Below are positions 4,660 through 22,608 of a DNA stretch of 64,000 nucleotides, one piece after another. This stretch comes from Shewanella dokdonensis. GTDB lineage: Bacteria > Pseudomonadota > Gammaproteobacteria > Enterobacterales > Shewanellaceae. The stretch is taken from contig NZ_CP074572.1 of NCBI RefSeq assembly GCF_018394335.1, positions 2,790,001 through 2,854,000 of the forward strand, in the 5' to 3' direction. The notes beneath the pieces are model-generated. The model saw only the letters and a program-made list of their open reading frames with translations. It made no database searches and had not been told where the DNA came from. Position 1 is the first letter of the stretch. Each line of letters begins with the position of its first letter. The translations under genes and the position numbers were made by a program.

Positions 4660-5544
4660 TCAACTGAACAGCTTGAGTTGTGGTCGGGTGGTATGGGTGA
4701 GAGTCAGTGCTTCGAGCGTGGATAAGCCGTGAGCCATACGGTAATCGATTAAACGCTGCCATAAACGGGCGGCCAGTTGCGGTGCCGCAATATTATCCGG
4801 GGTATGTACAAACAAGTAGGGTGTACGACCTTCATCCAGCCACTGACTGAGTTTTGCCAGCCAGGGCGTGAATAGTTGTTCACTGTTATCCAGATCCAGT
4901 TGCCCAATAAATCGCACTACGGGTTGCTGGGCTGTGGCAATGGCATGTACTGGCACTCTGGGCTTTTTGCGCTGTGCGTCCAGGATCACTGGGTTATCTG
5001 CCTTGGCGGCAAATAGCGGACGGCTGTCCATGATGATACGGTTTACGCCTTCGCTGAGTAACCAGCGGTTTAACTGGGTTTCTGCCGTGCCCTTGGCAAA
5101 AAATGCCGGGTGGCGCACCTCTACGCCTAGCGTCAAACCTTGTGGCAACCACGGCAAAAAAGCTTGCAGTTGTGGCAGCGCTTCTGGGCCAAAAGCCGCC
5201 GGTAGTTGAATTTGCCACATCCCGGTGATTGGTATTAACGGCGCCATGGCGTCGAAAAAGGCGCGCAATTCATCACGGCAATGGCGTAACTGCAACTGAT
5301 GAGTAATGGTCTGGGGTAATTTAAAGGTAAACCTAAATGATGCGGGAACCGCTGCTGCCCAATCTGCGGCAACGGTTTTCAGTGGGGTGGCATAAAAGCT
5401 GGTGTTACCTTCAACGCTGTTAAACACTTGGGCATAACGTGCTAGTCGCTCAGTGGTGGCCGCATTACCGCCATAAACACTGTCTTGCCAGCGGTGGTGA
5501 GACCACATGGCCATACCAATATGTAGCGTTGGGGGCGTTGTCAT
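4660..5544 (-). CDS. DUF72 family protein (YecE-like)
   Basis: A 294-residue protein of the DUF72 TIM-barrel family, whose biochemical role is not established. It has the usual opening MHIG-like strand (LHIGMAMWSHHRW), YAQVFNSVEGNTSFYATP and SFRFTFKLPQTITH, and the C-terminal TPYLFVHTPDN strand. Its start overlaps the stop of the upstream LysR gene by four bases (ATGA), so the two are probably co-transcribed and translationally coupled. No signal peptide is visible; it is likely cytoplasmic. Confidence 0.88.
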   Translation of the reverse strand: MTTPPTLHIGMAMWSHHRWQDSVYGGNAATTERLARYAQVFNSVEGNTSFYATPLKTVAADWAAAVPASFRFTFKLPQTITHQLQLRHCRDELRAFFDAMAPLIPITGMWQIQLPAAFGPEALPQLQAFLPWLPQGLTLGVEVRHPAFFAKGTAETQLNRWLLSEGVNRIIMDSRPLFAAKADNPVILDAQRKKPRVPVHAIATAQQPVVRFIGQLDLDNSEQLFTPWLAKLSQWLDEGRTPYLFVHTPDNIAAPQLAARLWQRLIDYRMAHGLSTLEALTLTHTTRPQLKLFS

Positions 5545-6437
5545 ACGGGCTCGGCGGCTAACTGTTCACGGATCAGGGCTACCATCGCCTGTGCCGCAAA
5601 AGAGAGCGGATGCCCTTTGCGCCAGAACAATGACAGTTCCCAGATCAGGTCGTCTGTGGATAATGGTACGCGGCTGACACCGGCAACGGCATGTCGTTCC
5701 GCGATGAATCCCGGCATAATCATCACGCCAGTTCCCGCAGCCACCAGTGTTATCCCAAAATCTGGATGGCTGACCTTGGTGGCAACCTTAGGAATAAACC
5801 CGGCTTTAACACAACCGCTGAACACCAGTTCATGTAAGGCATACTCTTCATCAAACAGAATTTGTGGTGTGTCTTCCAACTGTTTCAGGGTCAGTTGTGG
5901 CTGGCTCGCTAGCGGATGCTGTTTGGGAACTACCACCACCATAGGATTACGGCGAATACAAAAACCTTCAAACTCTTCATCAAATGAGATGATGCCCGTT
6001 GCCAGCTCTACTTCGCGTTTCTTCAACGCTATTGTTTGCTCTATGCCACCACGCACGAACAGTTGCATGGCGATTTTAGGATATAGGCTGCGATAACGGG
6101 CGATTACTGGCGCAAAAATCTCGGCACTGCCCAGCGGTGCCAATCCCAGATGCAATTCTCCGGCGTTGAGGCTGCGCTGAGCTTCCAGCTCCTGGTGCAT
6201 CTCCTGTTTTACTTTTAATAGCTGCATTCCGTAGCGATATACCACTTCACCAGAGGCAGTAGGTTTCAGTTGGCTACCGCGTTTGCCGCGTTCCAATAGG
6301 ATTAAGTCCAGCTCGTCTTCCAGCTGATTGATCGCTTTAGACAAGGCCGGCTGGGTGATATGAATTGCCTCTGCGGCTTTGGCAAAACCACAGTGATCGA
6401 CAATTTCAATAAAATAGCGAATAACTTTGAGGTCCAT
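5541..6437 (-). CDS. LysR-family transcriptional regulator
   Basis: A 298-residue regulator with an N-terminal winged helix-turn-helix (FIEIVDHCGFAKAAEAIHITQPALSKAINQLE, residues 10-42) and a periplasmic-binding-protein-like effector domain from about residue 90. It is divergent from the LrgA/LrgB-type pair starting at 6534, with 96 bases between them. It also overlaps the DUF72 gene. By the usual LysR logic it may control both its own operon and the divergent membrane pair; this is inferred from position. Confidence 0.93.
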   Translation of the reverse strand: MDLKVIRYFIEIVDHCGFAKAAEAIHITQPALSKAINQLEDELDLILLERGKRGSQLKPTASGEVVYRYGMQLLKVKQEMHQELEAQRSLNAGELHLGLAPLGSAEIFAPVIARYRSLYPKIAMQLFVRGGIEQTIALKKREVELATGIISFDEEFEGFCIRRNPMVVVVPKQHPLASQPQLTLKQLEDTPQILFDEEYALHELVFSGCVKAGFIPKVATKVSHPDFGITLVAAGTGVMIMPGFIAERHAVAGVSRVPLSTDDLIWELSLFWRKGHPLSFAAQAMVALIREQLAAEPV

Positions 6438-6533
6438 ACAATAACCTACAGGAATTCTATCTATTATTAATATTCATTTTTTTATCTAAAATACCACCCT
6501 ACAATAACAGCCAATAAGGAATTTTTTGGTGGT

Positions 6534-7010
6534 GTGATGCAAAGCTATCTTCGTTCGTCCCACGGTCATCGCTGCCGTTTGTTGCTTGCTCAAAGCAAGC
6601 ACTACAGTGCGGCGTTATTGCAGATTGGTTTTATCTGCTTATTGGCCTGGGGTGCACATGCCGTTGCAACCGCGATCCACTCGCCAATCCCTGGCAGCGT
6701 GATCGGCTTATTTGTGGTGTTGCTGGCACTGGCACTTAAAATTATTCCGGAAAAAGCACTGCAACTCGGTGCCGCTTGGTTTATCGGTGACCTGTTGCTG
6801 TTCTTTATTCCACCTATGATTTCAGTGTTGAAGTACGAAAATCTGTTAGAGCAATACGGCCTGAACATTCTGTTCACCCTAGTGGTTGGCTCCGCCAGCG
6901 TGTTGCTCAGCACCGGTTTTGTGGTGGACAGGGTATTCCGTTTTGAACGGAAATTAAACCTTAAACGGCAGATGGCGCGGCAAAAAGCACGAGGTAACAT
7001 CAATTTATGA
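6534..7010 (+). CDS. CidA/LrgA-family membrane protein
   Basis: A 158-residue protein with about four hydrophobic segments (ALLQIGFICLLAWGAHAVA, IPGSVIGLFVVLLALALKI, LGAAWFIGDLLLFFIPPMI, NILFTLVVGSASVLLSTGFVV). SPIPGSVIGL and FIPPMISVL are typical of the LrgA/CidA holin-like family. The exact start is uncertain: the upstream GTG-ATG has only a distant AAGGA, and an internal start near the AQSKHYSAALLQ segment is possible. The stop overlaps the next gene by four bases. The pair may form a holin/antiholin-like or metabolite transport complex; the substrate is unknown. Confidence 0.85.
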   Translation: MMQSYLRSSHGHRCRLLLAQSKHYSAALLQIGFICLLAWGAHAVATAIHSPIPGSVIGLFVVLLALALKIIPEKALQLGAAWFIGDLLLFFIPPMISVLKYENLLEQYGLNILFTLVVGSASVLLSTGFVVDRVFRFERKLNLKRQMARQKARGNINL

Positions 7011-7698
7011 GCCAGTCGACATTGTTGGCGCTGTTAAGTTTGGCGGTAACTGTCGCCAGTTATTATTCAGCCAAGGCTCTGTATCGTCGTCATAAAACCT
7101 GGTGGTTACTGCCCAGTATTATGGCGCCAGTGGTAGTGATTGTGATGGTGGTAATGCTGTCTATTCCATTACCTACTTATTTTGAATATACCCATTGGTT
7201 GGTGACCTTACTGGCACCTGCCACCGTGGCTTTTGCCTTGCCTATCTACCGTGAGCGGCAATTGATCCGTAAGTACCCCATCACTATCAGTTTCGGAGTG
7301 CTGGCGGGGGTGATTTTGGGTTGACCTCGACTTGGTTATTGGTACAAGTGGTACCACTACCGGCCGAGTTAAGTCACAGCGTATTGGTACGTTCGGTGTC
7401 TACTCCGTTTGCCATGCAGGCGACCACATCTTTTGGTGGCGTACCCGAATTGACTGCTATGTTAGTGATGTTAACCGGGATTATCGGCATGGTAATCGGT
7501 GAGCCGCTGTTTCGTTTGGCGCATATCCACACCTCCTTGGGTAAAGGGGTGGCACTAGGCGCCTCGGCTCATGGTTCTGGCACTGCTAAGGCCACTGAAA
7601 TCGGCCAACAAGAAGGCGTGGTTGCCAGCCTGACTATGATATTTGCTGGCATCACCATGGTGATTGGTGCGCCAGTGTTTGCGTGGATTTTTTCATAA
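7007..7698 (+). CDS. LrgB-family membrane protein (one-base frameshift)
   Basis: The product would be about 230 residues, the normal length for LrgB/CidB proteins. The N-terminal half has PTYFEYTHWLVTLLAPATVAFALPIY. The C-terminal half has the family signature SVSTPFAMQATTSFGG, then GKGVALGASAHGSGTAKA. The two halves are separated by a missing base at about 7320-7323 (GGTTGACC where GGTTTGACC would keep the frame). It is translationally coupled to the LrgA-like gene and is followed by a strong terminator. Confidence 0.87.
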
Positions 7699-7830
7699 TG
7701 TTTTGCAGTCACTGCCAATGGTGGTGACTCACGGTTTGATTACCGTCCTCTGGGATTTGGTAATCGTCGCCTGAAACCCCAATCAGGCATATCAATCCTG
7801 AGTCTCTCAGGTTTTCATGTTGCGTTTACG

Positions 7831-7857
7831 CCGGTGGTTCCCCCACCGGTTTTTTTT
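7831..7857 (+). terminator. Rho-independent terminator after the lrgAB-like pair
   Basis: CCGGTGG/CCACCGG stem with a short TTCCC loop and eight T. Confidence 0.88.
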
Positions 7858-7859
7858 GT

Positions 7860-7878
7860 CTGAAATTTGGGATTTCAG
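7860..7878. repeat. isolated inverted repeat at island edge
   Basis: CTGAAAT/ATTTCAG arms around a TTGGG loop, directly after the terminator and before the repeat block. It could be a small hairpin in the same style as those that follow. No T-run. Confidence 0.4.
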
Positions 7879-7930
7879 CCGAAGGTTGGATTTGTAGGCC
7901 GCGCCCTGCCAACTGGTGCGCCTAAGATTT

Positions 7931-8313
7931 ATCACTGCGTGATTGCAACCTGCGGTTGCTGCATAAGCATGATGGCTTGCGCCATACCAAGCTGTGCTTG
8001 GTGAAGTCGTGAGCTGTCGCGCTCACACTGCGACCAAGGGGCGATGCTCGTCCATCAATAACATCCATGTTAAACGGCCAGCTCGCCATCCGTGGCTCGC
8101 GCTCATAAGCGCACTCATCGTAGATGAGTATTCGCCCTTATAAATCCCATACCGCCCCACGGCGCAAAACGCTGCGGTGCTTCTGGTTTGCCATTCTCGC
8201 AAATCGCCGCCAACTCGGGATCCATTCCTCGGCGCGGCTTCTTCGGCATCCATGCCTCGATTGATCAATGGCTGCCCAACGCACCTGCGCTGCGCCAAGG
8301 GGAATTGGTGTTG
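7931..8313 (+). repeat. island repeat, copy A (hairpin head plus 257-bp core)
   Basis: The first part, 7931-8026, is a chain of perfect small hairpins: ATCACTGCGTGAT, GCAACCTGCGGTTGC (7945-7959), ATGGCTTGCGCCAT (7972-7985), CCAAGCTGTGCTTGG (7987-8001) and GTGAGC/GCTCAC (8009-8026). The second part, 8057-8313, is nearly identical over its length to 9377-9632 (copy B). It contains the further hairpins GCGCTCATAAGCGC and ACTCATC/GATGAGT. Open frames here are short, conflict with one another and have no ribosome-binding sites, so I treat it as non-coding. Confidence 0.85.
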
Positions 8314-8328
8314 CCAGCTCGTTTAGCG

Positions 8329-8479
8329 TTTGAACGTTGCACTGTTCGAGCTTGATAAGCTTGATGGCTAGCGCCATTAGCGCACTCATCGTAGATGAGT
8401 ATTCACCCTTCTAAATCCCATACCGCCCCACGGCGCAAAATGCTACGGGAATTGGTGTCGTCCGAGAAGTCAGTGTGTT
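8329..8479 (+). repeat. island repeat, copy A' (internally deleted)
   Basis: A 151-bp shortened unit with the same ends as copy B: TTTGAACGTTGCAC at the left and TCAGTGTGTT at the right. Between them are the ATGGCTAGCGCCAT hairpin, the ACTCATC/GATGAGT hairpin with its TAAATCCCATACCGCCCC tail, and GGGAATTGGTGT. Compared with copy B two internal blocks are missing. Confidence 0.75.
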
Positions 8480-8588
8480 CGCTGATCTCAAATTAGTGAC
8501 TGTCTCCATTTTTACTGTATCGTTAAAGATATGTTATATAGTTGATGTCTACTACTCATATAGAATGTCATCTACAGTGGAGGTAAAT

Positions 8589-9242
8589 GTGCAAAATAGA
8601 ATATTTATTTTAGTATCCTTGATTCTTACACTTTTATTCAGTGTTAATAGTTCGGCAGCAACATTATCGTGCAAAGCCAATGCCTTAAATGAATTCAACA
8701 AAAATGTCAGATCTGACATTGCAGACTTCAAAAAAGGTGTTTCAGATATACAGCAAAAATCAATTGAAAAACTTGCCCCTCTTTATCAAAGGTTAGGACT
8801 GGATAATGGTATCTATCAAAATTATATGGATGCGTATTATAAAGCTCAGTCGGCTACTGATGAATACTTGAATGCGGCATGCAGTAAAGGCATTTCCAAT
8901 AATAAATTGAAGCAACTTTCAAATGAGATGAGTAAGAAGATATTCTCATTGCGTGGCCGATATCTGAAACTCTTTAGAGCATATGGAACACAGGAATTAA
9001 CCATTTATATTTGCTATGAAAGAATTAAAGATGGTTTATTAAAAGAAATAAGATCATCACAGCAACTAAATAAATCGCCTGAAGAGCTAGAAGATAAACT
9101 AGAGCAAAATAATGGTGATTTTAAGCGAATCTCATACCAAATTTGCGCCTTTAAAGCTTCAGAAAAAACAATTCCTTCAATTTACCAAACTGAATTAGAG
9201 GTTAGCAAAGTTACCATGTTTAATATTTTAACCGGCCAGTGA
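8589..9242 (+). CDS. secreted or periplasmic protein of unknown function
   Basis: I do not recognise the family. GTG at 8589 is the best start: GGAGG lies five bases upstream, and the product (about 217 residues) then opens with a clean signal peptide (QNRIFILVSLILTLLFSVNSSAA, cleavage probably after SSAA). The mature part is rich in helices and charged residues (SDIADFKKGVSDIQQKSIEK, NNKLKQLSNEMSKKIF) with four cysteines outside the signal (SCKA, ACSK, YICYE, QICAF), suggesting two disulphides. It is AT-rich against its surroundings and sits between direct repeats A' and B, so it was probably acquired. Confidence 0.75.
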   Translation: MQNRIFILVSLILTLLFSVNSSAATLSCKANALNEFNKNVRSDIADFKKGVSDIQQKSIEKLAPLYQRLGLDNGIYQNYMDAYYKAQSATDEYLNAACSKGISNNKLKQLSNEMSKKIFSLRGRYLKLFRAYGTQELTIYICYERIKDGLLKEIRSSQQLNKSPEELEDKLEQNNGDFKRISYQICAFKASEKTIPSIYQTELEVSKVTMFNILTGQ

Positions 9243-9263
9243 AGTCAAAAGGTATGAGTTTAG

Positions 9264-9651
9264 TTTGAACGTTGCACATTTGATAAGCTTGATGGCTGGT
9301 GCCATTACCAAGCTGCGCTTGGCAAAGTCGTGAGCTGTCGCGCTCACACTGCGAGATAAAGGGCTAGACGGCTTCGAATAACATCCATGTTAAACGGCCA
9401 GCTCGCCATCCGTGGCTCGCGCTCATAAGCGCACTCATCGTAGATGAGTATTCGCCCTTATAAATCCCATACCGCCCCACGGCGCAAAACACTACGGGCT
9501 TATGGTTGGCCATTTTCACAAATCGCCACCAACTCGGAATCCATTCCTCGGCGCGGCTTCTTCGGCATCCATGCCTCGATTGCTCAATGGCTGCCCAACG
9601 CACCTGCGCTGCGCCAAGGGGAATTGGTGTTGTCTGACAATTCAGTGTGTT
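9264..9651 (+). repeat. island repeat, copy B (complete unit)
   Basis: The most complete copy, 388 bp, from TTTGAACGTTGCAC to TCAGTGTGTT. Its hairpin head reads ATGGCTGGTGCCAT (9292-9305), CCAAGCTGCGCTTGG (9308-9322) and GTGAGC/GCTCAC (9330-9347). The core 9377-9632 matches copy A. It lies immediately downstream of the secreted-protein gene and 33 bases before the first attC-like site. Confidence 0.85.
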
Positions 9652-9684
9652 AAGCGCGGAAAAATAGGTGAATGTTTTCATTCC

Positions 9685-9782
9685 AATTAACGCCGCATTA
9701 AGGCGTGAGCGGCTATTGCCTATACTTTGAACGAAACGAAAATGGGGAGCGTTTCGAATCACTCTTAAATGCTTTGTTATAT
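9685..9782 (-). other. attC-like recombination site of cassette 1
   Basis: Read on the minus strand it starts ATATAACAAAGC, overlapping the stop codon of the cassette gene, and ends GCCTTAATGCGGCGTTAATT. The start resembles Vibrio-type repeats (TATAACAAACGCC) and the end has the G-TT core. The inner arms (GCATTTAAGAG... and ...CGCCTTAATGC) are imperfectly complementary, as expected for a folded bottom strand. Length 98 bp. Confidence 0.7.
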
Positions 9783-10419
9783 TTGTTTGTTTACGATGTT
9801 TACAAACTTAAGCCACTTTTCTCGGACTTCAACTAACCTGTACTCTTCATGTTGAATACTTGTTTCTACCATTTGATTAATGTGCACAGAGTTACGCTCT
9901 TGTCGCAACATATCAATCACTCGAATTAGGTCGGCTATATCTGAGTTTTCATTATTTTCATGCTTATTCCATGCTTTTAAACTATCTATGGCAGCTTTAA
10001 AGGTCATGGCTTGAACTCTACCACTATTATTTTTCTTGGCTAGTCGCTCACCATTGATAACCAATTCTTTAGCTTTTGATGAAGAAATCCAATTATTGTA
10101 CTTTTCTAGGGTGATTTTTTTATTTTTGTATAAATTAACCACCAACACCTCAAGCAACCCCTCAAAAACGCTACCGAAGTGTATTAACTCGGCTTTAATA
10201 TTCGCTTGCTTAAAGTCCATTGGAGGATGAAGATACTCATTAATGGCTTGTTCATCTATACCGAACAGCCACTATTGCATCAAATCTCTCTTTTGAACAA
10301 AGTTGGCGCTCTTGCAGAAACGATAACGATGCAACAATGTCTTCTTTATTTGGGCTAATATTCCGAGAAACTTCGCCTAAAAACAGCTCCCAGGTTGCAT
10401 ATTGATTGACACTACTCAT
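9777..10419 (-). CDS. gene-cassette protein, unknown function (one-base frameshift)
   Basis: The original product would be about 214 residues. It starts at ATG 10419 (GGTGGAA upstream) with MSSVNQYATWELFLGEVSRN. The frame breaks near 10265: removing one base joins KERFDAI to a WLFGIDEQAINEYLHPPMDFK continuation. The C-terminal half is helical with LRQERNSVHINQM, which loosely recalls the R-x(n)-H motif of HEPN RNases; this is weak evidence. Its stop codon lies inside the attC start, as is typical of integron cassettes. I cannot tell whether the break is real decay or sequencing error. Confidence 0.65.
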
Positions 10420-10443
10420 TAATTCCACCAAATCTGATTACAA

Positions 10444-10518
10444 ATATAACGACTGCGTACTAGACCAATTTGTGGCGCACAGAGGGACAAATCGATCCCG
10501 TTGTCGCATTTGTTAGAT
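10444..10518 (-). other. attC-like recombination site of cassette 2
   Basis: On the minus strand it runs from ATCTAACAAATGCGAC to ACGCAGTCGTTATAT. The outer ends carry the TAAC and GTTA cores and the inner TGCG/CGCA pair is complementary. The stop codon of the upstream cassette gene is the TAA of its first core. Length about 75 bp. Confidence 0.6.
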
Positions 10519-11639
10519 TGACACAAAAGCATAAGCAGCTTGTAGCTCGCGTTCAGCACCTTCTACCGTCAATGGGCCAGAAGACCTTTCCTCTAGGATA
10601 CCTTTTATATGCTCCCAACACTGATCTACGTCAGATAAATCTGTGTCGGTAAAAGTGACGGTTGTTATACCGTACTTTTCAAAATAAGCGTTGCGTTTAT
10701 CTGCTTCTTTACTCCACTTCACCGAAAGCTCTTCGTTGAATGTCTTTTGAGTTTTTTAGTACTCCCAGCAATCGACATATGCGAAGATGCCGGGCTTATT
10801 TCAAAAGCAACCATTCTCATAGTATACGAGTTAAGTACTGAAAAATCTAAGCGATAAAGGTGTTTGGCCTCTTTACCTGCGTACCGAAGCTCTGGAATTA
10901 ACAAAGGTACAGACTCTGGGGCGTCGCTTTCCCTGATGTAGTCCAGATATCGCGTTGAAATCGCTTGCTCATACTCCGAATTAGAGACACGAGCCAATAC
11001 CGTTTGGTAAAAGGTTAGGAACGCCTGAATATCTGGAAATATCACAGGCTCTTCACTTTCTGGGGCTATCAAGCCAGTCTCCAAAACATGTTCGATGGTC
11101 CAGTATGCATAATTTTCACGTCGCATCTGGCTCTTATCATTTGTCCATTCGCCAAATCGATGTGTCGGTGAGATCAAAAGCCCCCATACCAGCTTCCCCG
11201 AACCAAACCAGACTTGCCAAAGGTTTTGATCGGGTTTTGCTCTCACTCGTGCTTCAAAATTACGGTAGAAATTCCTCTCTAAAAATCGATGAATGTATTC
11301 ACGGAGAAGCTCGTTCTGAAGCATCTCTGGGATTATTTCTTCTGTTCGTTTGCGATCCCCGAAATGGCGACGACGGGCGATATCCTCTTTTCGCTCAATT
11401 ATTTGTTTTGTAAGCCCATTAAGCCACCGCGCGATAAAGTCTTCTGGAGAGTGAAATTGCATCCGCACACTGTCTACAAAGGTGTTGTTATTTCTACCAA
11501 TGTGAGCGTGCATTTGATGAACATTCGATTTGCAACCAACGATTTGGGAAAAGCGAACCAACGCTTCCTCGCGCATACATTCAAGCCGCGAAGAAAGCTC
11601 TTCTTCTTTCCTTTGAATGTCTTTAGTTAGTGTCATCAT
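10513..11639 (-). CDS. gene-cassette protein, possible PD-(D/E)XK nuclease (one-base frameshift)
   Basis: The two frames join at an A-run (minus strand, near 10760): six A where seven would give STKKTQKTFNEELSVKWSK. The product would be about 375 residues. The N-terminal 200 residues are helical and unrecognised. The C-terminal part reads HLYRLDFSVLN...MVAFEISP...WSKEADKRNAYFEKYGITTVTFTDTDL. The RxDF...vaiEi...yf.k.Gi.tv.F.d.dl pattern resembles the restriction-endonuclease-like fold of DUF559/Vsr-type proteins, but this assignment is by eye. The gene ends within the attC core. A slip on AAAAAA could in principle be programmed, but the other breaks in this window argue for sequence error. Confidence 0.6.
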
Positions 11640-11659
11640 ATTCTCATTGATTAAATTTG

Positions 11660-11736
11660 GTCTAACGACGCCAGCTCAGGCGAGCGCCATAGGTGCGAGT
11701 CCAGCTGGCTGGCGTTTGTAGCTGGTTTTGTTAGGC
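11660..11736 (-). other. attC-like recombination site of cassette 3
   Basis: The clearest site. On the minus strand it starts GCCTAACAAAACCAGC and ends GAGCTGGCGTCGTTAGAC, with canonical RYYYAAC and GTTRRRY cores and long complementary inner arms (ACGCCAGC with GCTGGCGT). It begins one base after the stop of the 11738-12151 gene. Length 77 bp. Confidence 0.85.
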
Positions 11737-11737
11737 T

Positions 11738-12151
11738 TTACAAAAATAGGTACGCACCTACTGAGATACATATAATTCCTATAATACGAGTAGACCAAAG
11801 TGATGACTGTAAAGAATTCGGCTCACGGCCAGCCTTTATTATTTCATTCATAGTGTCGTGAACGCGAAACGACTGGATAAAACCACTTACTCCGTATAAA
11901 CCGAAAAGTAACCCAAGAATGTTTAGCCAATTACCACTTTTAACAAAAGCCAAGTAGTAACCGGCTGGAACACAAACACTAGCTATCCAGAACATAGAGG
12001 CATTGTATTCGATGAATGGTGCGGAACCCTCAAAGGAATCACCGTCACTTTCTATGGCCTTCTTTATTTGACGAAATTTAAGATACGTATAACCGTTAAA
12101 AACGATGCCAATAACACCCGCCACTATTAAAAACAATCCAAATCTTGTCAT
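11738..12151 (-). CDS. gene-cassette membrane protein, unknown function
   Basis: A 137-residue protein with four predicted membrane segments: FGLFLIVAGVIGIVFNGYTYL (residues 4-24), MFWIASVCVPAGYYLAFV (about 53-70), WLNILGLLFGLYGVSGFIQSF (about 74-94) and IIGIICISVGAYLFL at the C-terminus. A charged segment (RQIKKAIESDGDSFEG) follows the first. Small multi-spanning proteins of this kind are common integron cassette products. I do not recognise a named family. The gene is bracketed by attC-like sites. Confidence 0.75.
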   Translation of the reverse strand: MTRFGLFLIVAGVIGIVFNGYTYLKFRQIKKAIESDGDSFEGSAPFIEYNASMFWIASVCVPAGYYLAFVKSGNWLNILGLLFGLYGVSGFIQSFRVHDTMNEIIKAGREPNSLQSSLWSTRIIGIICISVGAYLFL

Positions 12152-12167
12152 ATATTTTCTCGACTTA

Positions 12168-12230
12168 GCCTAACGCCCAATTAAGGGGTGAACAACGCTA
12201 CCACCTCACCTAAAGCATTGTGTCATAAAC
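12168..12230 (-). other. attC-like recombination site of cassette 4
   Basis: On the minus strand the site ends with CACCCCTTAATTGGGCGTTAGGC, a canonical right core. The left end is degenerate (TATGACACAATGC), but GTGAGGTGG and the CACCCC region leave short complementary arms. It follows the stop of the 12232-13368 gene directly. Length about 60 bp. Confidence 0.7.
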
Positions 12231-12231
12231 A

Positions 12232-13368
12232 CTAAATTTGAAGTAGAACCAAAAATGCCAAGCGTTGAGAATCCCTATTAAATTGATTGTTATAGCGAAT
12301 TTTGATGCATTCGCTTACTTTTATGTAATAAAGGGAAATCAAAAGGGGAATTCCATAAGTAAAGCTAGGTTCAATTTTGTGATTTTTCTTTGTTGGATTT
12401 ATATGCTGGTGATCTGGTCCAAATGGGATGTCAGGGTGATCTGGCGCAGAGTCGATTCTATGCAACTGTTTATTTGAGTCATCGAAAAGCATGTAAGCAT
12501 AACTTTTTAGATTGTTTAATCGAAGTAACCAATACCAACCGTCGTCCATAACAAAGCGTGATTCCCAACCATTATTACCTTTTTGGGGAGGTGTGAAAGT
12601 TGCTCCTAAGTTTGATGAAATGATAGAAAAAATGGGCTCTATAAGTTTATCAGGAATATGGTCCAACATTATGAGGTCAGGGATTTCCAAGTTTAAGAAA
12701 AATAGAGTACCGAAAAAGGCTAACACACACGAATGTTCGTTCACGTCATATTCATGAGATTTACACAATGAAATTTCAATCATTACAGCCGAATCATCAC
12801 CCATGGTAGTCGCAGCTCTATGTGTAGCTTTGTCTCCACATATTGCGCAACCATCCCCCTTGGAAGCAACAATTACTTGCTCAACACTAGTGTTGGCAAG
12901 TCTTCCTTCAGCAAATTTAGTGGGCTGTTCTAGTACTTTTAATTTGTGTTCTTTCCATGCATTAAATACATAACTTGCTTCTTGAGAGTCAATAAGATTA
13001 AAAAGCTCTCGTTCTGAGTTAAGCGTTATCCAATTACCTCTCGTCCATGGAGAGTCTCTACGGTGATCCATCTTAGGAGAAGGCTGCAGCCTGTATAGTC
13101 GAATATAACCACAGCCAACATTTTGCTTGTACATTGCCCAGCCATGACCTTTAGATTTGATCCAAAGAAGTGAATCTGCGCCGTCAATTAGCCTTTCCCA
13201 GTAGTCCATTCTATAGGTAATCAACTCTAAAACATGTTCAATCCTCTTCTCCACATCAAGCATGTTCATAGAGGTCATTTGAATATAGGAATCAATAACT
13301 TCTGATGTAACAGCCTCATTTTCTAAAACTTTGTAAGTTGAATCTATAGCAATATATGGTGGTTCCAT
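12232..13368 (-). CDS. gene-cassette protein with a Cys/His cluster, unknown function
   Basis: ATG at 13368 is preceded by AAGGAG at a good distance (six bases), which favours it over an in-frame ATG 78 bases upstream. The product has 378 residues and is not recognised. Around residues 175-205 it holds CAICGDKATHRAATTM and SLCKSHEYDVNEHSC, a C-x2-C...H...C-x2-H arrangement that could bind zinc. The N-terminal part has a WI/WxMYK aromatic patch (WIKSKGHGWAMYKQNVGCGY), and the C-terminal part a repeated WYWLLRL/YAYMLFDD pattern. AT-rich. It is the cassette nearest the IS element. Confidence 0.65.
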   Translation of the reverse strand: MEPPYIAIDSTYKVLENEAVTSEVIDSYIQMTSMNMLDVEKRIEHVLELITYRMDYWERLIDGADSLLWIKSKGHGWAMYKQNVGCGYIRLYRLQPSPKMDHRRDSPWTRGNWITLNSERELFNLIDSQEASYVFNAWKEHKLKVLEQPTKFAEGRLANTSVEQVIVASKGDGCAICGDKATHRAATTMGDDSAVMIEISLCKSHEYDVNEHSCVLAFFGTLFFLNLEIPDLIMLDHIPDKLIEPIFSIISSNLGATFTPPQKGNNGWESRFVMDDGWYWLLRLNNLKSYAYMLFDDSNKQLHRIDSAPDHPDIPFGPDHQHINPTKKNHKIEPSFTYGIPLLISLYYIKVSECIKIRYNNQFNRDSQRLAFLVLLQI

Positions 13369-13611
13369 AAGCTCTCCTTCGCTATAACAGTATTTAGACG
13401 ACATGCTGTCGGAATTAATCACGACACGATGTCGCATTTCACGCATCCATACCGCTCAACTTATGCGCATATCTCACTGAACACAATAGAAAAACGTATA
13501 AAAATTGATCTAGAAGACGGTGGAAAAGCGACTGTCTGATAGAAGCGCTGCAGAAAATACGACATTGAGCTAAGGCGGCAGCTGTGACGACAAGCAGTTA
13601 GAGCGTGGCGA

Positions 13612-13655
13612 GGGAGTGTTGGGCAGCCATTGAGCAATCGAGTCATGGATGACGT
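13612..13655 (-). repeat. fragment of the island repeat in inverted orientation
   Basis: On the minus strand CTCGATTGCTCAATGGC followed by TGCCCAAC matches the part of the repeat core at about 9576-9600. It directly abuts the left end of the IS. The stretch 13447-13611 between the cassette gene and this fragment shows no gene or recognisable element. Confidence 0.7.
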
Positions 13656-13658
13656 ATA

Positions 13659-14995
13659 GGGACTCCTCCCGTTTGTGAACAGCGATCTTTGATAAAAATA
13701 AGTCGAGCGTGCGTATAGTCGGTCTTTTATTGGAGTTGCGATCTCCTGACCCTAATGAATGGCGCGCTCCCATGTTCCTTAGCGAGAATTCGGCATTTCT
13801 TGCCACGTCATCCAACAGGTTTTACATGGGAAGGTCTAACCTATTTTCTCATCGATTGTTGCTCAACAACTTGGTTTGTCAGTATCTTATGCACCAACAG
13901 TTTCACGATAATGTGCATCGTAGGTTTCTTGCTTACTCATCAATGCCCAGGCTGTTCTAACTGTCTTATTTACCAAAGCAACCGCCGCTTTGTTCTTGCC
14001 AGCCCGAGCGATTAGCTCTCTTAGCCATTGGCTTTTTGCATCTTCTTTATCACCTAGCATTTTTATGACGGCTAATGCTCCCCGTACTAAAGCTGCTCGT
14101 AACGTCACATGCCGTGTTCGTCCAATCCCCATCAAGTTAGCTTTACCGCCACTGCTAAATTGTTTTGGCGTTACACCGATGTAGGCGGATGCTTCTCGGC
14201 CTCGCTTGAATGCTCTGCAATCACCTAATGCACTATAAAGCATGGTGGCTGTCACTGGACCAATACCTTCTAGCTCGGAGATCAAAGCACATGCACTAAT
14301 TGAGCGACTAAGCTGCGAGACCTGCAAGTCCATCTGTTTAAGTCGTTCGTTCAATACATTAATTTCCTGCATCTCTTCGCTTAGTAATGCTCGCATCACT
14401 GGCGACAACTCGTTTTCAGCATTCTCTAAAGCTAGCTGTACCGTTCTTCTCAGTGCTGGCTGACCTTTGGCACTAGCGATGCCAAATTCGAGCAATATGG
14501 CATGTGTCTGATTAATGATTTGCGTCCGTTGTTTTATCAGACGTTCTCGCACTCGATGAATAGCTTGAACATCTTGTTGTTCAAGGTTTTTTAACGGCAC
14601 AAAGCGCATATCGACACGCATACCAGCCTCAGCAATGGCTAACGCATCATTAGCATCTGTCTTATGGCCTTTTCTAAACGGTTTAACAAACTGTGGGGCA
14701 ATCATATGAACTTCATGCCCTAACAGTTGAATCTGTCGTGCCCAATAATGAGCACCACCACAGGCTTCCATAAATACTCGGCTTTTACGCTGGTTACGCA
14801 TAAAGTTGAGCAGGTCTTTTCGCTTAATGGCTTTGTTGAGAACTTCTGTTCGTTGAGTGCTGTCGACGCAGCTAATTTGGAAAATGTTCTTTGCCAAATC
14901 AATTCCAATGACATTAAGCTTACTCATGACTCCTCCTGCCCAATTTGGGTACTTAGATACCGTATCTGCTAGCTTAGCAGAGGGGGAGGAGTCCC
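13659..14995 (-). mobile_element. IS110 family, IS1111-group insertion sequence
   Basis: A DEDD transposase gene lies between perfect 12-bp inverted repeats, GGGACTCCTCCC at 13659-13670 and its complement at 14984-14995. Subterminal repeats with a few extra bases outside are typical of the IS1111 group, so the true ends may lie a few bases further out. No target duplication is visible, as expected for this family. The right side abuts a repeat copy just after GGCCAGCTC. IS1111-type elements are known to target attC sites; here it sits next to the cassette array but inside the repeat family. Confidence 0.85.
13887..14927 (-). CDS. IS110-family transposase (IS1111 group)
   Basis: Transposase of 346 residues starting MSKLNVIGIDLAKN (GGAGGAGTCATG context supports this start over one 93 bases upstream). 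The N-terminal DEDD RuvC-like domain carries GIDLAKNIFQI, VFMEACGGAHYWAR and FRKGHKTDANDALAIAEA. The C-terminal Tnp_20 domain has ELEGIGPVTATMLYSALGD, the AYIGVTPKQFSSGGK signature with the catalytic serine region, and GIGRTRHVTLRAALV. The length is normal and the frame intact, so the element may be active. Confidence 0.95.
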   Translation of the reverse strand: MSKLNVIGIDLAKNIFQISCVDSTQRTEVLNKAIKRKDLLNFMRNQRKSRVFMEACGGAHYWARQIQLLGHEVHMIAPQFVKPFRKGHKTDANDALAIAEAGMRVDMRFVPLKNLEQQDVQAIHRVRERLIKQRTQIINQTHAILLEFGIASAKGQPALRRTVQLALENAENELSPVMRALLSEEMQEINVLNERLKQMDLQVSQLSRSISACALISELEGIGPVTATMLYSALGDCRAFKRGREASAYIGVTPKQFSSGGKANLMGIGRTRHVTLRAALVRGALAVIKMLGDKEDAKSQWLRELIARAGKNKAAVALVNKTVRTAWALMSKQETYDAHYRETVGA

Positions 14996-15001
14996 TTTCA
15001 T

Positions 15002-15152
15002 TGAGCTGGCCGTTAAACATGGATGTTATTCGAGGCTGATCAGCCCCCTTGTCTCGTAGTGTGAGCGCGACAGCTCACGACTTTCGCAAACGCAGTTTGC
15101 AATCACGCAGTGATAGCTTCTGCCAAGCGCAGCTTGGTATGGCGTAAGCCAT
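15002..15152 (-). repeat. island repeat, copy D, inverted (hairpin head)
   Basis: On the minus strand the hairpins are ATGGCTTACGCCAT (15139-15152), CCAAGCTGCGCTTGG (15123-15137), ATCACTGCGTGAT (15102-15114), GCAAACTGCGTTTGC (15086-15100) and GTGAGC/GCTCAC (15061-15078). The shared AATAACATCCATGTTtAACGGCCAGCTC segment follows. The hairpin order differs from copy A, and one stem differs by paired substitutions. Beyond GGCCAGCTC the sequence enters the IS. Confidence 0.85.
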
Positions 15153-15173
15153 TGCCGTTAGTCTACAAAAACA

Positions 15174-15198
15174 AAAAAGCCCGCAAGGCGGGCTTTTT
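15174..15198 (-). terminator. Rho-independent terminator after ppa
   Basis: Minus strand AAAAAGCCCGCC/TTGCGGGCTTTTTT hairpin between ppa and the island edge. Confidence 0.85.
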
Positions 15199-15224
15199 CC
15201 AGCGAACGGCCAACCAAAGGTAAA

Positions 15225-15758
15225 TTACTTACCTTGATTGTAACGTTCGGCACTGGTGAGAATTTCCGCACGGGCAGAAGCGGCATCTTCCCAGCCGTCA
15301 ACTTTTACCCATTTGCCTTCTTCCAGATCTTTGTAGTGTTCAAAGAACTGTTTGATCTGGGCTTTCAGCAGTGCTGGCAGATCGTTCACATCTTGGATGT
15401 GTTTGTATTCTTTAGAGACTTTGTCGTGTGGTACGGCCACGATTTTGGCATCTTCGCCAGATTCGTCGGTCATCTTCAACACGCCAACCGGGCGGCAACG
15501 GATCACGCTGCCGGGTTGCAGTGGGTACTGGGTTGGCACCAGTACGTCAACTGGGTCACCGTCCAGGCTCAGGGTCTGGTTCACGTAGCCGTAGTTGCAT
15601 GGGTAAAACATGGGTGCAGTCATCATGCGGTCTACAAACAGGGCACCAGTGTCTTTGTCTACTTCATACTTGATGGGATCGTGGTTCTGAGGAATTTCGA
15701 TCACGACATAGATATCGTCTGGCAGGGATTTGCCCGCAGGCACAGCAAGTAAGCTCAT
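15225..15758 (-). CDS. ppa: inorganic pyrophosphatase, family I
   Basis: Cytoplasmic Mg-dependent enzyme that hydrolyses pyrophosphate to phosphate, pulling biosynthetic reactions forward. The 177-residue length is standard for the bacterial hexameric enzyme. The active site is visible in [25 protein letters not shown] (signature D-G-D-P-x-D) with later acidic residues ([30 protein letters not shown]). Single gene with its own terminator; it marks the right border of the accessory island. Confidence 0.97.
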
Positions 15759-15879
15759 TTATTTGTCCTTTCACTCTCAGTGGAATCTTGGCGATATCGC
15801 CGCGATTAGCGTCATGTGGCGGCTATTATAACGCGATTTGACGGCTTGCCAACGCTGGCAAACCGCCAGAGTTTACCGA

Positions 15880-16869
15880 TTACAGCGCGGGTTCTTCGCT
15901 GTAGTCGACTGCATGGTATTCCAGGCAGGTCGCCACTTCGTTAGCAGAACCTAGGATAACCGCCACCCGTTGATGAATCGCTTGTGGTTGGATGTCGAGA
16001 ATATCCTGATAGCCGGTACTGGATTTACCACCCGCCTGTTCCACCAGCAATGACATAGGATTGGCTTCGTACATCAAACGCAGTTTGTAAGGTTTTTGCG
16101 GATTTTTGTTGTCGGTGGGGTAGGTAAAAATACCACCGCGACTCAGCACCCGGTGCACATCTCCCACCATGGCGGCAATCCAGCGCATATTGAAAGATTT
16201 TTCACGTGGGCCGATTTTACCCAGCAGCAGGTCGCCAATGTATGTCTGCATTGGGGCTTCCCAGAACTGCTGATTAGACATGTTAATGGCAAATTCGGCG
16301 GTGTCTTTAGGGATGCTGACCGCTGGATTGGTCAGCAGATATTCACCGTTTTGTGGGTCGAGGGTATACAGCTGCACACCGTGGCCTGTGGTCAGTGCCA
16401 GCATGGTTGCCGGGCCATACAATACATAACCGGCGGCCACTTGATGGCGACCACTTTGCAGGAAACTCTGCTCGCTCACCTCACCTTGTGGTGCTGGCAA
16501 TACTGAAAAAATAGTGCCGACCAGCGAGTTGATGTCGATATTGGACGAACCATCCAGTGGGTCAAAACACACCAGATAATCACCGTGATCGCCAAGCACT
16601 ACCGGGAAATCTTCCTCTTCAGACGCCAATGCCCGCACCGTACCGTCGGCACGCAATGCCTCTTTGAGCATTTCATTGGTGATCACGTCCAGTTTCTTCT
16701 GGGTTTCACCCTGCACGTTTTCGTGGTCAGTGCTGCCGAGCACTCCAGCCAATGCACCACGGCGCACGGCGTTGCTGATAGCGACAGAGGTCGAGGCGAG
16801 GGTCTGGAGCAGTTGCGCCAGCGATGCCGGAATAGCTTGATTGGCTAGGGTTTGAGCCAGGGTTTGCAT
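15880..16869 (-). CDS. fbp: fructose-1,6-bisphosphatase, class 1
   Basis: Gluconeogenic enzyme converting fructose-1,6-bisphosphate to fructose-6-phosphate. Length 329 residues. Metal and substrate motifs are in place: [10 protein letters not shown] (acidic metal ligands), [21 protein letters not shown], and the sugar-binding RYIA-like region with [10 protein letters not shown] and [17 protein letters not shown]. It lies in the same direction as ppa with 121 bases between them, so a separate promoter is likely. Confidence 0.97.
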
Positions 16870-17041
16870 GCTGTTTCCTTATGTGAATTCGGGAGCCGAT
16901 CCTGGGTGGCAATCATAGCGCAAAAATCCACAGTTTTCAGCGGTTACATGGCGGGTTTGTCCAACCGGGAAAAATAAGGCAGAATGGAGCCCTGAAGTTA
17001 TCAGGCGGTTTCTGATACATAGCTGATGGAATAACAATAAC

Positions 17042-19282
17042 ATGACCCGACACTGGATTTATTCGGTACTTATGGCAATCCCATTTTCACTTGGCAGCGC
17101 GGCCAGCAGCGCGCAAACCCTTAGCGGTGGTAGCGAACCACTCACCGTTGATAGACTTTACGATTCACCGGATTTGGCAGGCAGTAGTCCGCGGCAACTG
17201 AAGTTGTCACCGGATGGCGCGCGCGCGACTTTTTTGGTGGGGCGTAAGGATAATCTGCATTTTTACGATTTATGGCAGATGGATGTCGCCAGCGGCAAGG
17301 TTAGTATGTTGCTGGATGCTTCCAAACTGCAACAGGGCGAATTATCCGATGAGGAAAAAGCCCGCCGCGAACGGCAACGGATTTATGGTGAAGGCATCAT
17401 GGAATATGCCTGGGCCGATGATGGTAAGGCACTGCTGATCCCGTCATCCGGTAAACTCTATTATTACACGCTGGCCGATGGCAAAGTGCGGTTATTGCCA
17501 ACTGGCGATGGTTTTGCCACCGATGCCAAATTGTCACCCAAGGGGCACTATGTCACTTTTGTTGCCGGGCAGAATCTATGGCTACTGACACTGGCGAACG
17601 ACAAGCTCACGCAACTGACTAAAGACGGTGGCGGCGTGATTAAAAACGCTATGGCCGAATTTGTGGCGCAGGAAGAGATGGGGCGCATGACCGGCTACTG
17701 GTGGGCGCCGGATGAATCGGCAATTGCCTTTAACCGGGTGGATGAATCACCGGTAGAAGAAGTCACCCGTAATGAAATCTATGCCGATGGAATCAAGCTG
17801 ACTCAGCAACGTTACCCGGCAGCGGGCACTGCAAACGTGCAGATAAAATTGGGCGTGATTGCACTGCCGCAGCAAACGGTGACATGGATTGATTTGGGCC
17901 AAGACACTGACTTTTACCTGCCGCGAGTAAAATGGCTGCCCGACAGCCGTCATCTGTCATTCCAGTGGCAAAGTCGTAATCAGCAGCAGTTAGACCTGCG
18001 CGTTGTGGATGTGCACTCAAACCAAGCGCCGCAAACGCTGGTCGCTGAACGCAATAACATCTGGATTAATCTCAATGACGATCTGCATTTCCTCAAGCAG
18101 GGCGGCTTCCTGTGGACGTCTGAGCGCAGCGGCTTTAAGCATATTTATCTGTTTGCCGCCGACGGCAAGGTAACACAGCAACTGACTCACGGAGACTGGG
18201 CAGTCGATAGTATTAGCCATGTGGATGAAAAACAGGGCTGGGTGTATTTCACCGGCCGTAAAGACAGTGATGTCGAGAAGCAGCTGTATAAAGTGCGTTT
18301 TGATGGCAGTGATTTGACCCGTTTATCAACCCAACATGGGATGCACCAAGCGGTATTTGCCGATAATAAAGCCGTCTATCTGGATTACTTTGACTCGCTA
18401 TCACAGCCGCCGCAGGTGAGTTTGCATGATGCTGAGGGTAAGCGTCTGGCGTGGGTGGAACAAAATGCCGTCAAACCAGGGCACCCCTTATATCAATATG
18501 CTGGCCTGTGGCAGTTGCCCGAGTTCGGCACATTGACGGCTGAAGATGGGCAGACCTTGCACTATCGGTTGTTCAAGCCCGTTAATTTTGATGCGCACAA
18601 GCAATATCCGGTGTTAGTGCGGGTGTATGGTGGTCCACATGCACAGATGGTGGTGAACAGCTGGAGCAGTCAGGATTACTTCACCCAATATCTGTTGCAA
18701 CAGGGCATTGCCGTGTTCCAGTTGGATAATCGGGGTTCTGGCCATCACGGTCTGCGCTTTGAACAGGTGATCTATCAACACTTGGCGGTTGCCGAAGTGG
18801 CCGATCAAAAGCAAGGCGTTGATTATCTGCGGACTTTGCCATGGGTGGATGCTAACAAGATTGCCGTATATGGTCACAGTTATGGTGGTTACATGGCGCT
18901 GATGTGTAAGTTGAAGGCACCGGATTACTTCAAGGTGGCGATCAGCGGCGCACCAGTGACCGACTGGTCGCTGTACGATACCCACTACACTGAACGGTAT
19001 CTGGGCAATCCCCATGATAATGCCGAAGGCTATCGCTTAAGCAGTGTGCTGCCATATATCGGCAGTTATCAAAGTGGTTTATTGATGTATCACGGCATGG
19101 CGGATGACAACGTGCTGTTTGAAAACAGCACTCGCGTATACAAGGCGTTGCAAGATGACGGTAAGCTGTTTGAAATGATCAACTATCCGGGCGCCAAGCA
19201 TTCCATGCGTGGCAATAAGGTCAAAACGCATCTGTATAAATCGCTGACCGATTTTCTGGAGCGGCAGTTCAAGCGGCAATAA
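17042..19282 (+). CDS. S9 family prolyl oligopeptidase / dipeptidyl peptidase IV
   Basis: A 746-residue periplasmic or outer serine peptidase. Residues 1-25 form a signal peptide (MTRHWIYSVLMAIPFSLGSAASSA). The first 490 residues are the DPP IV-type beta-propeller, including MAEFVAQEEMGR with the paired glutamates that bind the substrate N-terminus. The C-terminal hydrolase domain holds the catalytic serine in GHSYGGYMAL, aspartate in GMADDNVLFENS and histidine in PGAKHSMRG. It probably removes N-terminal Xaa-Pro dipeptides, useful for peptide nutrition. Convergent with the antiporter gene; a shared terminator lies between. Confidence 0.93.
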   Translation: MTRHWIYSVLMAIPFSLGSAASSAQTLSGGSEPLTVDRLYDSPDLAGSSPRQLKLSPDGARATFLVGRKDNLHFYDLWQMDVASGKVSMLLDASKLQQGELSDEEKARRERQRIYGEGIMEYAWADDGKALLIPSSGKLYYYTLADGKVRLLPTGDGFATDAKLSPKGHYVTFVAGQNLWLLTLANDKLTQLTKDGGGVIKNAMAEFVAQEEMGRMTGYWWAPDESAIAFNRVDESPVEEVTRNEIYADGIKLTQQRYPAAGTANVQIKLGVIALPQQTVTWIDLGQDTDFYLPRVKWLPDSRHLSFQWQSRNQQQLDLRVVDVHSNQAPQTLVAERNNIWINLNDDLHFLKQGGFLWTSERSGFKHIYLFAADGKVTQQLTHGDWAVDSISHVDEKQGWVYFTGRKDSDVEKQLYKVRFDGSDLTRLSTQHGMHQAVFADNKAVYLDYFDSLSQPPQVSLHDAEGKRLAWVEQNAVKPGHPLYQYAGLWQLPEFGTLTAEDGQTLHYRLFKPVNFDAHKQYPVLVRVYGGPHAQMVVNSWSSQDYFTQYLLQQGIAVFQLDNRGSGHHGLRFEQVIYQHLAVAEVADQKQGVDYLRTLPWVDANKIAVYGHSYGGYMALMCKLKAPDYFKVAISGAPVTDWSLYDTHYTERYLGNPHDNAEGYRLSSVLPYIGSYQSGLLMYHGMADDNVLFENSTRVYKALQDDGKLFEMINYPGAKHSMRGNKVKTHLYKSLTDFLERQFKRQ

Positions 19283-22458: not shown

Positions 22459-22608
22459 ATGAAATCCGCACAGTGTGGTTGGGTAAGCGCCCTTTACGAA
22501 GCTGCGACTACTGCAGTCCCTGAAACCAAGGCTAAAACCGCCAAGGTCAATAACCAGGGTTCGTGGAAAGGCAGTTTCCATTTCCACAAAAAAGCTAAAG
22601 CAGCTTAA
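22459..22608 (+). CDS. small basic protein of 49 residues, unknown function
   Basis: ATG at 22459 is preceded by AGAGGAA at ribosome-binding distance and the frame is closed by TAA just before a terminator, which supports a real transcript. The product starts MKSAQCGWVSALYEAAT, has a Lys/Thr-rich middle (ETKAKTAKVNN), and ends SWKGSFHFHKKAKAA. It is basic, has one cysteine, no signal peptide and no membrane segment. Divergent from the LysR gene, which could regulate it. I cannot assign a family. Confidence 0.65.
   Translation: MKSAQCGWVSALYEAATTAVPETKAKTAKVNNQGSWKGSFHFHKKAKAA

Follow-up and report, generated by a model that had tools for sequence, protein, structure and literature searches.

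In a 64,000-nucleotide stretch of the Shewanella dokdonensis genome (contig NZ_CP074572.1, positions 2,790,001 to 2,854,000; hereafter the window), a row of short hairpins recurs within an island at 7931-15152. Comparison of the copies suggests that this row is, on balance, probably the 3' tail of a predicted structured RNA which is repeated across Shewanella and would serve as a decoy for CsrA, a master regulator of metabolism and lifestyle in bacteria. The repeat is roughly 400 bases long, with the hairpin row at one end, and is ordered in RNA sense as a TwoAYGGAY-like module (module A), a sister module (module B) and the chain of mini-hairpins. In the initial annotation of this DNA the chain alone had been described, on the other strand. 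The chain proved to be real but forms one end of a longer element reaching up to ~8320, and the strand with the conserved fold is opposite to the one quoted there. Among the functions then suggested, the best fit is an RNA folded into a series of short stems that may serve as a protein-binding array.

All five perfect hairpins quoted earlier were found (7931-7943, 7945-7959, 7972-7985, 7986-8002 and 8009-8026). Perfect hairpins, defined by a stem of at least 5 and a loop of 2-6, cover 77 of the 96 bases at 7931-8026, compared with a mean of 7.9 and a maximum of 52 in shuffled sequences (0/1000 as high). The coverage at 9285-9350 (47/66 bases) and 15055-15152 (75/98 bases) was likewise reached by 0/1000 shuffles in each case. 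When 96-base segments of the entire 64 kb were ranked by hairpin density (48-base steps), the top seven overlapped 7931..15152, and the eighth was located elsewhere, at 22561. The hairpin centre CTGCG, which had been reported as common to several stems, was confirmed; on the opposite strand the loops read GCA, GAA, GCAA, GUAA, GAGCA and GCGACA. The hairpins are kept in other copies and in other species, and the repeat family is genuine.

The conserved fold was found in the core of module B. A total of 84 core copies, 82 from loci matching a search pattern and two from the window, were aligned on the strand opposite to the earlier quotation. In this alignment three arms are enclosed by an outer stem, which is swapped as a whole among copies (CCATGAC/GTCATGG, CCAAAAC/GTTTTGG, CGAAAACA/TGTTTTCG and TGTGGGGC/GCTCCACG). 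For the 76 of 84 rows with an anchor, an outer helix of at least 6 bp could be formed in 42, compared with a mean of 17.4 and a maximum of 27 after shuffling of the partners. The first arm opens with GyGA and closes with GArC, a tandem G.A/A.G arrangement. Both anchors of this arm were present in 74 of the 84 rows and 73 were counted; the anchors required GA on both sides but no y-r match, and the y-r pair was C-G in 36, U-A in 32 and U-G in 5 (n=73), next to a G-C (39) or A-U (32) pair. The tandem-GA arm is followed by two hairpins, hp2 and then hp1.

A reduced alignment kept 58 rows, which were also trimmed; the 26 dropped were one window row and 25 locus rows, being near-duplicates or outliers (e.g. 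L147, L150, L140 and L160). In the trimmed alignment 83.8% of the cells are paired, versus 62.2% in shuffles (0/500 as high) and 33-52% for structures slid along the alignment. Pair changes on both sides numbered 293, versus 109.5 in shuffles (0/500 as high). These shuffles leave the relatedness among rows in place; the results of the slides and the pair types agree in direction. Helices 2-5 are paired in 86-99% of cells. Among the lost pairs of these helices (14 pairs, with pair 79-92 left out), 27 were G-U and two A-C, giving a binomial probability of 8e-7 if cells are independent. With such an excess of G-U, the conserved structure looks like the RNA of one strand rather than a symmetric cruciform, while single-stranded DNA of the same strand would also fit. 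Protein coding is unlikely: open reading frames (ORFs) cross the element, but 14 of the 84 aligned copies lack the N of hp2 and the stems change on both sides.

The loops of hp1 and hp2 point to CsrA. Since the first search pattern had required GGATG at both sites, the loops were rechecked with the covariance model R1, itself built from rows of this pattern. Of 107 R1 hits in 75 chosen loci, 70 fall outside the search pattern. In these, the A of hp1 is kept in 68/68 and the three GGA positions in 65/67, 65/67 and 66/67, while N is A in 10, G in 19, T in 35 and C in 3, and X is T in 35, C in 19, A in 8 and G in 4; X varies although the alignment behind R1 had T alone at this position. For hp2 the corresponding counts are 59/69 for A and 66/69, 65/68 and 65/67 for GGA, with N free or missing (in 4) and X mostly T (53/65). 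The rule described for CsrA and RsmE is an ANGGAX hexaloop placed directly on a stem, an absent N being tolerated at a cost (PMC4005645). To judge from the hits outside the pattern, a nearly fixed A and GGA with drifting N and X is this published rule. The consensus selected in vitro for CsrA is given as RUACARGGAUGU, mostly on stems of up to 4 pairs, and a CsrA dimer is reported to span sites 10-63 nt apart, best at more than 18 (PMC7652899). In the window copies the two GGAs of module B are 22 nt apart, a spacing that the pattern itself set in the alignment. Several ANGGAX loops on short stems, as found in CsrB-type decoy RNAs, are present on one element.

The predicted protein partner and a candidate classical decoy are encoded by the same genome. 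Residues 1-52 of its CsrA are identical to a chain of PDB 1y00. One CsrB-like locus (L254, ~1400-1790) was found, with an RF00018 score of 31.8 bits, below the cut-off of 71; it carries many AGGA words, a terminator-like hairpin and a UvrY-type box with one mismatch at 1208-1225. The CsrB-like RNA has the same CANGGATG words as the repeats (CAGGATG, CAAGGATG and CATGGATG).

Module A could be related to a known motif. Rfam scanning of the window gave no match, and none was obtained at 7850-9700 with E up to 5. Two tandem AYGGAY stem-loops are present: GGCAUGGAUGCC and GGAAUGGAUUCC in module A of copy 2, and GCCACGGAUGGC and AACAUGGAUGUU in module B. In a close relative, the TwoAYGGAY model (RF01731, clan CL00106) reached 43.3 bits, against a gathering score of 43, at G061:C4:95007-95132. 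This match covers module A and falls within a stretch 88% identical to window positions 8034-8315, i.e. the orthologous copy. Among 28 loci of the genus scanned, two exceeded the cut-off, in S. corallii (L120, twice) and S. electrodiphila (L129). At genome level RF01731 was over the cut-off in 13 of 60 genomes of the genus, and in 35 of 60 at E up to 0.001. Among the matches listed, at least 11 RF01731 hits have an R1 hit no more than 260 nt away, oriented alike in G026 (contigs C64 and C71) and divergently in G026 (C35), G020, G028, G008, G062 (twice), G076 (twice) and G077. Module B was overlapped by no Rfam match in 20/20 R1 loci (E up to 5); in three of these 20 a sub-threshold RF01731 match occurred elsewhere in the locus. 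Kinship with a known named element, which would have told against the distinct element proposed in the annotation, is half present: the 5' module of the relative's copy just passes the TwoAYGGAY cut-off, while the central module had no Rfam match in those 20 loci. Module B is a predicted sister module of TwoAYGGAY, matched by no Rfam model in the loci tested.

TwoAYGGAY has been listed as a probable RNA, probably not cis-regulatory (PMC2864571), and was predicted to bind CsrA, with mention of tandem-GAs (PMC4333381); its type label in Rfam is Cis-reg. The Shewanella element shares with it two stem-loops with A-Y-GGA-Y loops and the tandem-GAs, and differs in the tail of GNA hairpins and the island setting, both outside the Rfam model. 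None of the papers listed in literature searches dealt with these Shewanella repeats.

A covariance-model search through Shewanella, as proposed in the annotation, showed that the family is spread over the genus. R1 matched 53 of 60 genomes, with 0-55 copies each (55 in G027, 45 in G014 and six in the genome of the window); these numbers are lower bounds, because only 69 candidates per genome were scored. By blastn, copy 1 found 16 pieces in its own genome and matches in 23 of 60 genomes, namely its own and 22 of 35 relatives of the same genus, with 0/24 among the others. A 30-base degenerate core pattern matched 103 stretches in named genomes, of which the 80 listed were all from Shewanella, and gave no match in viral contigs. 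An origin from a plasmid or phage was considered and rejected, as no match occurred in plasmids, phages or viral contigs. Among 119 genomes drawn from the order, R1 was found in eight, six of the genus and two outside it; the latter hits are weak (~30-35 bits) and occur six times in G161, a member of another family.

The mini-hairpins of the tail have a common loop type. In 13 tails, chosen from the genome of the window, close genomes and G023, 51 of 69 hairpin loops run from G to A, and GNA accounts for 34 of 41 triloops. For the wider genus set, GNA triloops made up 35/91 within 300 bases downstream of the core, 11/81 upstream and 26/316 in the far background. At 49/151 sites of its motif (GTG..CACGAY), versus 10/114 in reversed sequence, the first hairpin of the tail has a stem of 6 bp or more, and its loop runs G..A in 38 of these 49. 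Because GNA and GNRA loops are noted for stability, a decay-resistant 3' end is a plausible role for the tail.

In the proposed mechanism, the element would be transcribed, either from a promoter not seen here or by read-through, and one strand would fold into the outer stem (in about half of the copies), the tandem-GA arm and two ANGGAX stem-loops. The TwoAYGGAY-like module ahead of it in the window's copies carries up to two more such loops. Each module is predicted to bind a single CsrA dimer through its two hairpins, whose GGAs are 22 nt apart, and the RNA would decay more slowly owing to its compact 3' tail. A large number of copies could then jointly lower free CsrA, on top of the single CsrB-like RNA of the genome.

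Such an RNA would resemble the CsrB, CsrC and RsmX-Y-Z decoys in carrying several A(N)GGA hairpins. It differs in having two to four sites, compared with ~18 in E. coli CsrB and ~9 in CsrC (PMC8144298), and in its many dispersed copies without a UvrY box, which the CsrB-like locus has; the CsrB model gave no hit in the window. The RrA, RrB and RrF RNAs of E. coli are also multi-copy and bind CsrA in vitro, but they are made by rRNA read-through and are not a repeat family (PMC8144298); no sequence relation is claimed. Their effects in vivo are described as modest (PMC8144298), and by analogy caution is advised for the Shewanella element too. An rRNA read-through origin of the E. coli type was rejected as a parallel: the weak R1-like modules of G161 (L250, 1501-1583 and 1750-1840, minus strand) closely follow a 5S rRNA gene (1263-1378, plus strand) but are encoded on the opposite strand, so read-through would not make them.

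Several observations weigh against a CsrA decoy, the first group concerning the fold. Two of five covariation measures fail, since the number of pairs with a both-side change was 17, versus 16.5 in shuffles (274/500 as high), and that of further pair types was 55, versus 51.2 (48/500 as high). In the outer helix only 57.5% of cells are paired, and the lost pairs there are split 27 G-U to 15 A-C. The folding energy of the RNA strand (z -3.85) is no better than that of the other strand (-3.72), and hp2 is absent from the minimum-energy fold. The window copies score below the gathering threshold of TwoAYGGAY, with no RF01731 match in the whole genome of the window, and GGATG at both sites was imposed by the pattern from whose rows R1 derives. 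The number of CsrA-type hairpins in the whole window, 16, does not exceed the maximum of shuffled sequences (mean 7.6, maximum 16), and within 300 nt of the core 83 were sense and 71 antisense. Regarding expression, no sigma-70-like promoter was found at 7600-9800, compared with 4.5 in shuffles, nor any UvrY box (TGTAAGN6CTTACA) near the elements. For copies 1 and 3, read-through from the lrgB-like and pyrophosphatase genes would yield antisense transcripts, because these genes face the opposite way to the RNA. No gene arrangement prevails around the modules (11/11/9/9 in 40 loci of 11 genomes), and close neighbour modules formed four opposite and five same-orientation pairs among 56 hits.

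In a further scan, at L096, two promoter-like sites were found, versus 2.2 expected. Allowing up to three mismatches, 13 UvrY boxes occur in the window, versus a chance mean of 24.5; 7925-15152 contains a single one, which falls within an ORF (12492). Only copy 2 has an upstream ORF on the same strand (9777-10220). On draft loci, 24 of 58 gene contexts were convergent. A cis-regulatory 5'-leader role was rejected, because gene context shows no fixed orientation. In one element subtype (L118-L189) a AAATCGAAGA block is conserved ~92 nt upstream of the core in RNA sense; TCGAAGM matched in 22 of 83 upstream stretches, with no clear -35/-10, and the block is possibly the 5' boundary of this subtype.

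The main rival is a DNA-level dispersed repeat of the REP/BIME type (repetitive extragenic palindromes and bacterial interspersed mosaic elements) or of the MITE type (miniature inverted-repeat transposable elements), whose palindromes act as cruciform or single-stranded DNA in mobility and in which RNA has no part. It keeps this place because no sigma-70 promoter was found, read-through from host genes would mostly give the wrong strand and adjacent modules are sometimes inverted, as in BIMEs. Copies that are dispersed or in tandem, in some cases sharing the top score at separate sites of one genome, the neutral gene context, islands at the same site with differing sequence and synteny breaks at the elements would all suit such a repeat. 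We nevertheless judge it unlikely. The excess of G-U over A-C holds on one strand only (although single-stranded DNA of that strand would also explain it), and the tandem G.A pairs and the ANGGAX variability have an RNA-protein reading but no obvious reason at the DNA level. REPs, BIMEs and REPINs with their RAYT transposases are likewise dispersed palindromes between genes, at times in inverted pairs, but the Shewanella element is much longer and RNA-like. Its own genome has no Y1 transposase (PF01797), a family found in 32 of 60 genomes of the genus; the hairpins listed around 30 PF01797 loci are others, and one of these 30 loci holds a weak R1 match (25.1 bits). The 3' end motif GGTGGCTGTCC..ATTTTT, taken to sit beside such genes, occurred in 2/60 genomes with one mismatch allowed, and a RAYT link was rejected, in agreement with the annotation, which had seen no REP layout.

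A structured RNA with another partner or job, for instance 3'-end protection, termination control or binding of a different GGA-reading protein, is less probable still. The invariant GAACUGGC-type linker, the tandem-GA arm and the GNA-loop tail are not needed for CsrA binding and speak for such a job, whereas two adjoining hairpins in which A and GGA are fixed while N and X are free fit CsrA/RsmE specifically. Relics of a gene-cassette system, with hairpin arrays as recombination sites, would explain the single genes located between element copies or fragments (an SDR gene, an FRG-domain gene and a HipBA-like pair) and the three species with an element and then different sequence downstream of the pyrophosphatase gene. 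This explanation is highly improbable, as no integrase was seen beside the elements in a search limited to a few cargo proteins, modules at 40 loci of other species are intergenic and show no set orientation, and the covariation concerns RNA-type features.

The suggestion in the annotation of a homing unit or recombination substrate found no support, with no integrase among those few proteins and no clean empty site, yet the elements do occur at synteny breaks. Three species (that of the window, G061 and G005) carry an element after the pyrophosphatase gene, with differing sequence beyond; G030, the only other genome inspected on that side, is diverged downstream of the gene. As no clean empty site was found there in the genomes compared, target duplication could not be read. 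As to the terminal inverted repeats of a MITE, the single inverted pair seen in copy 1 is weak (14 nt, 79%) and does not occupy both ends of the copy. Synteny breaks at the islands when window positions 4750-8038 and 15031-17256 are compared with L092, L094 and L103, and in G005 a distance of 0.3 Mb separates the two flanks that adjoin in the window, each with elements of its own next to it. These breaks fit recombination between copies.

Returning to the CsrA decoy, the usual view is that a single dedicated small RNA, or a few of them, adjust CsrA. If the decoy reading is true, CsrA activity would also be set by the copy number of genus-wide two-site modules, up to tens in a genome and differing between strains, and a function would be gained for the unexplained Rfam motif TwoAYGGAY of Gammaproteobacteria and for its sister motif. 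We know of no test of the published prediction that TwoAYGGAY binds CsrA, which would become directly testable in the genetically tractable Shewanella. A bolder extension, which we hold only tentatively and regard as rather doubtful, is a distributed CsrB: dozens of dispersed two-site CsrA-binding repeats would jointly set free CsrA, and the islands of toxin-antitoxin and defence-like genes bordered by them would couple carriage of this cargo to the host's carbon and lifestyle switch. The cargo ORFs in the window have no confident family. Elsewhere in the genome the cargo includes an FRG-domain protein with a strong match to the PADLOC candidate-defence system PDC-S15, a HipA-like toxin module and an SDR; at L019 (3091-4023 and 8209-9873) the FRG-domain protein and the HipA-like module lie between element copies or fragments.

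The island at 7931-15152 is located between genes of the LrgA/LrgB family and the inorganic pyrophosphatase gene. It holds two direct copies, with RNA sense 8320-7931 and 9653-9292, a remnant at 8321-8518 and an inverted third copy at 13596-15152. That the third copy is inverted and interrupted by an IS110-family transposase gene, which parts its halves, had been overlooked. Copy 1 (minus strand) begins with module A at 8201..8320, the 5' part of the RNA, with hairpins GGCAUGGAUGCC at 8245-8256 and an imperfect GGAAUGGAUCCC at 8217-8228; R1 scores it at only 11.3 bits (E 0.39). Its module B at 8046..8147, a row of the R1 alignment, scores 75.6 bits (E 4.3e-18) and contains the tandem-GA arm with a hairpin at 8113-8129 and the CsrA-type hairpins GCCACGGAUGGC (8085-8096) and UAACAUGGAUGUUA (8059-8072). 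The 3' tail at 7931..8026 has five mini-hairpins with the RNA-sense loops GCGACA, ACA, GCAA, GCA and GCA. The remnant of a further copy (8321..8518, minus strand) has hairpins at 8349-8361, 8364-8377 and 8384-8400 and a conserved end sequence at 8494-8513.

Copy 2, also on the minus strand, comprises module A at 9520..9653, with hairpins GGCAUGGAUGCC (9564-9575) and GGAAUGGAUUCC (9536-9547; R1 17.8 bits, E 0.0075), module B at 9366..9467, with CsrA-type hairpins at 9405-9416 and 9379-9392 (R1 76.8 bits, E 2.1e-18), and a tail of three mini-hairpins at 9292..9347. Copy 3 (plus strand) retains a module A remnant at 13596..13700 with hairpin GUCAUGGAUGAC at 13642-13653 (R1 10.2 bits, E 0.78, alone not significant), a module B remnant at 14961..15041 with hairpin AACAUGGAUGUU at 15016-15027 (R1 23.8 bits, E 2e-4) and a tail of five mini-hairpins at 15055..15152. 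The IS110-family transposase gene between its halves is at 13887..15020 (minus strand; PF01548 and PF02371); the hairpin element may be a target of this transposase. After the tail of copy 3, beside the pyrophosphatase gene, a perfect inverted repeat is present at 15174-15198.

At the other border of the island, the LrgB-family protein is encoded by two overlapping ORFs in different frames (7007-7324 and 7321-7698), which cover positions 1-90 and 92-212 of the PF04172 profile; disruption or a sequencing error is possible. Finally, a second, related type of unit was seen by eye around single genes at L018 (1860-2340), L020 (1740-1990), L021 (1560-2160) and L022 (1370-1530), with the recurring ends TTTAGTGATGCTACAGAGTAACGGTG.. 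and CAGACAACGCCATTTCCCC.

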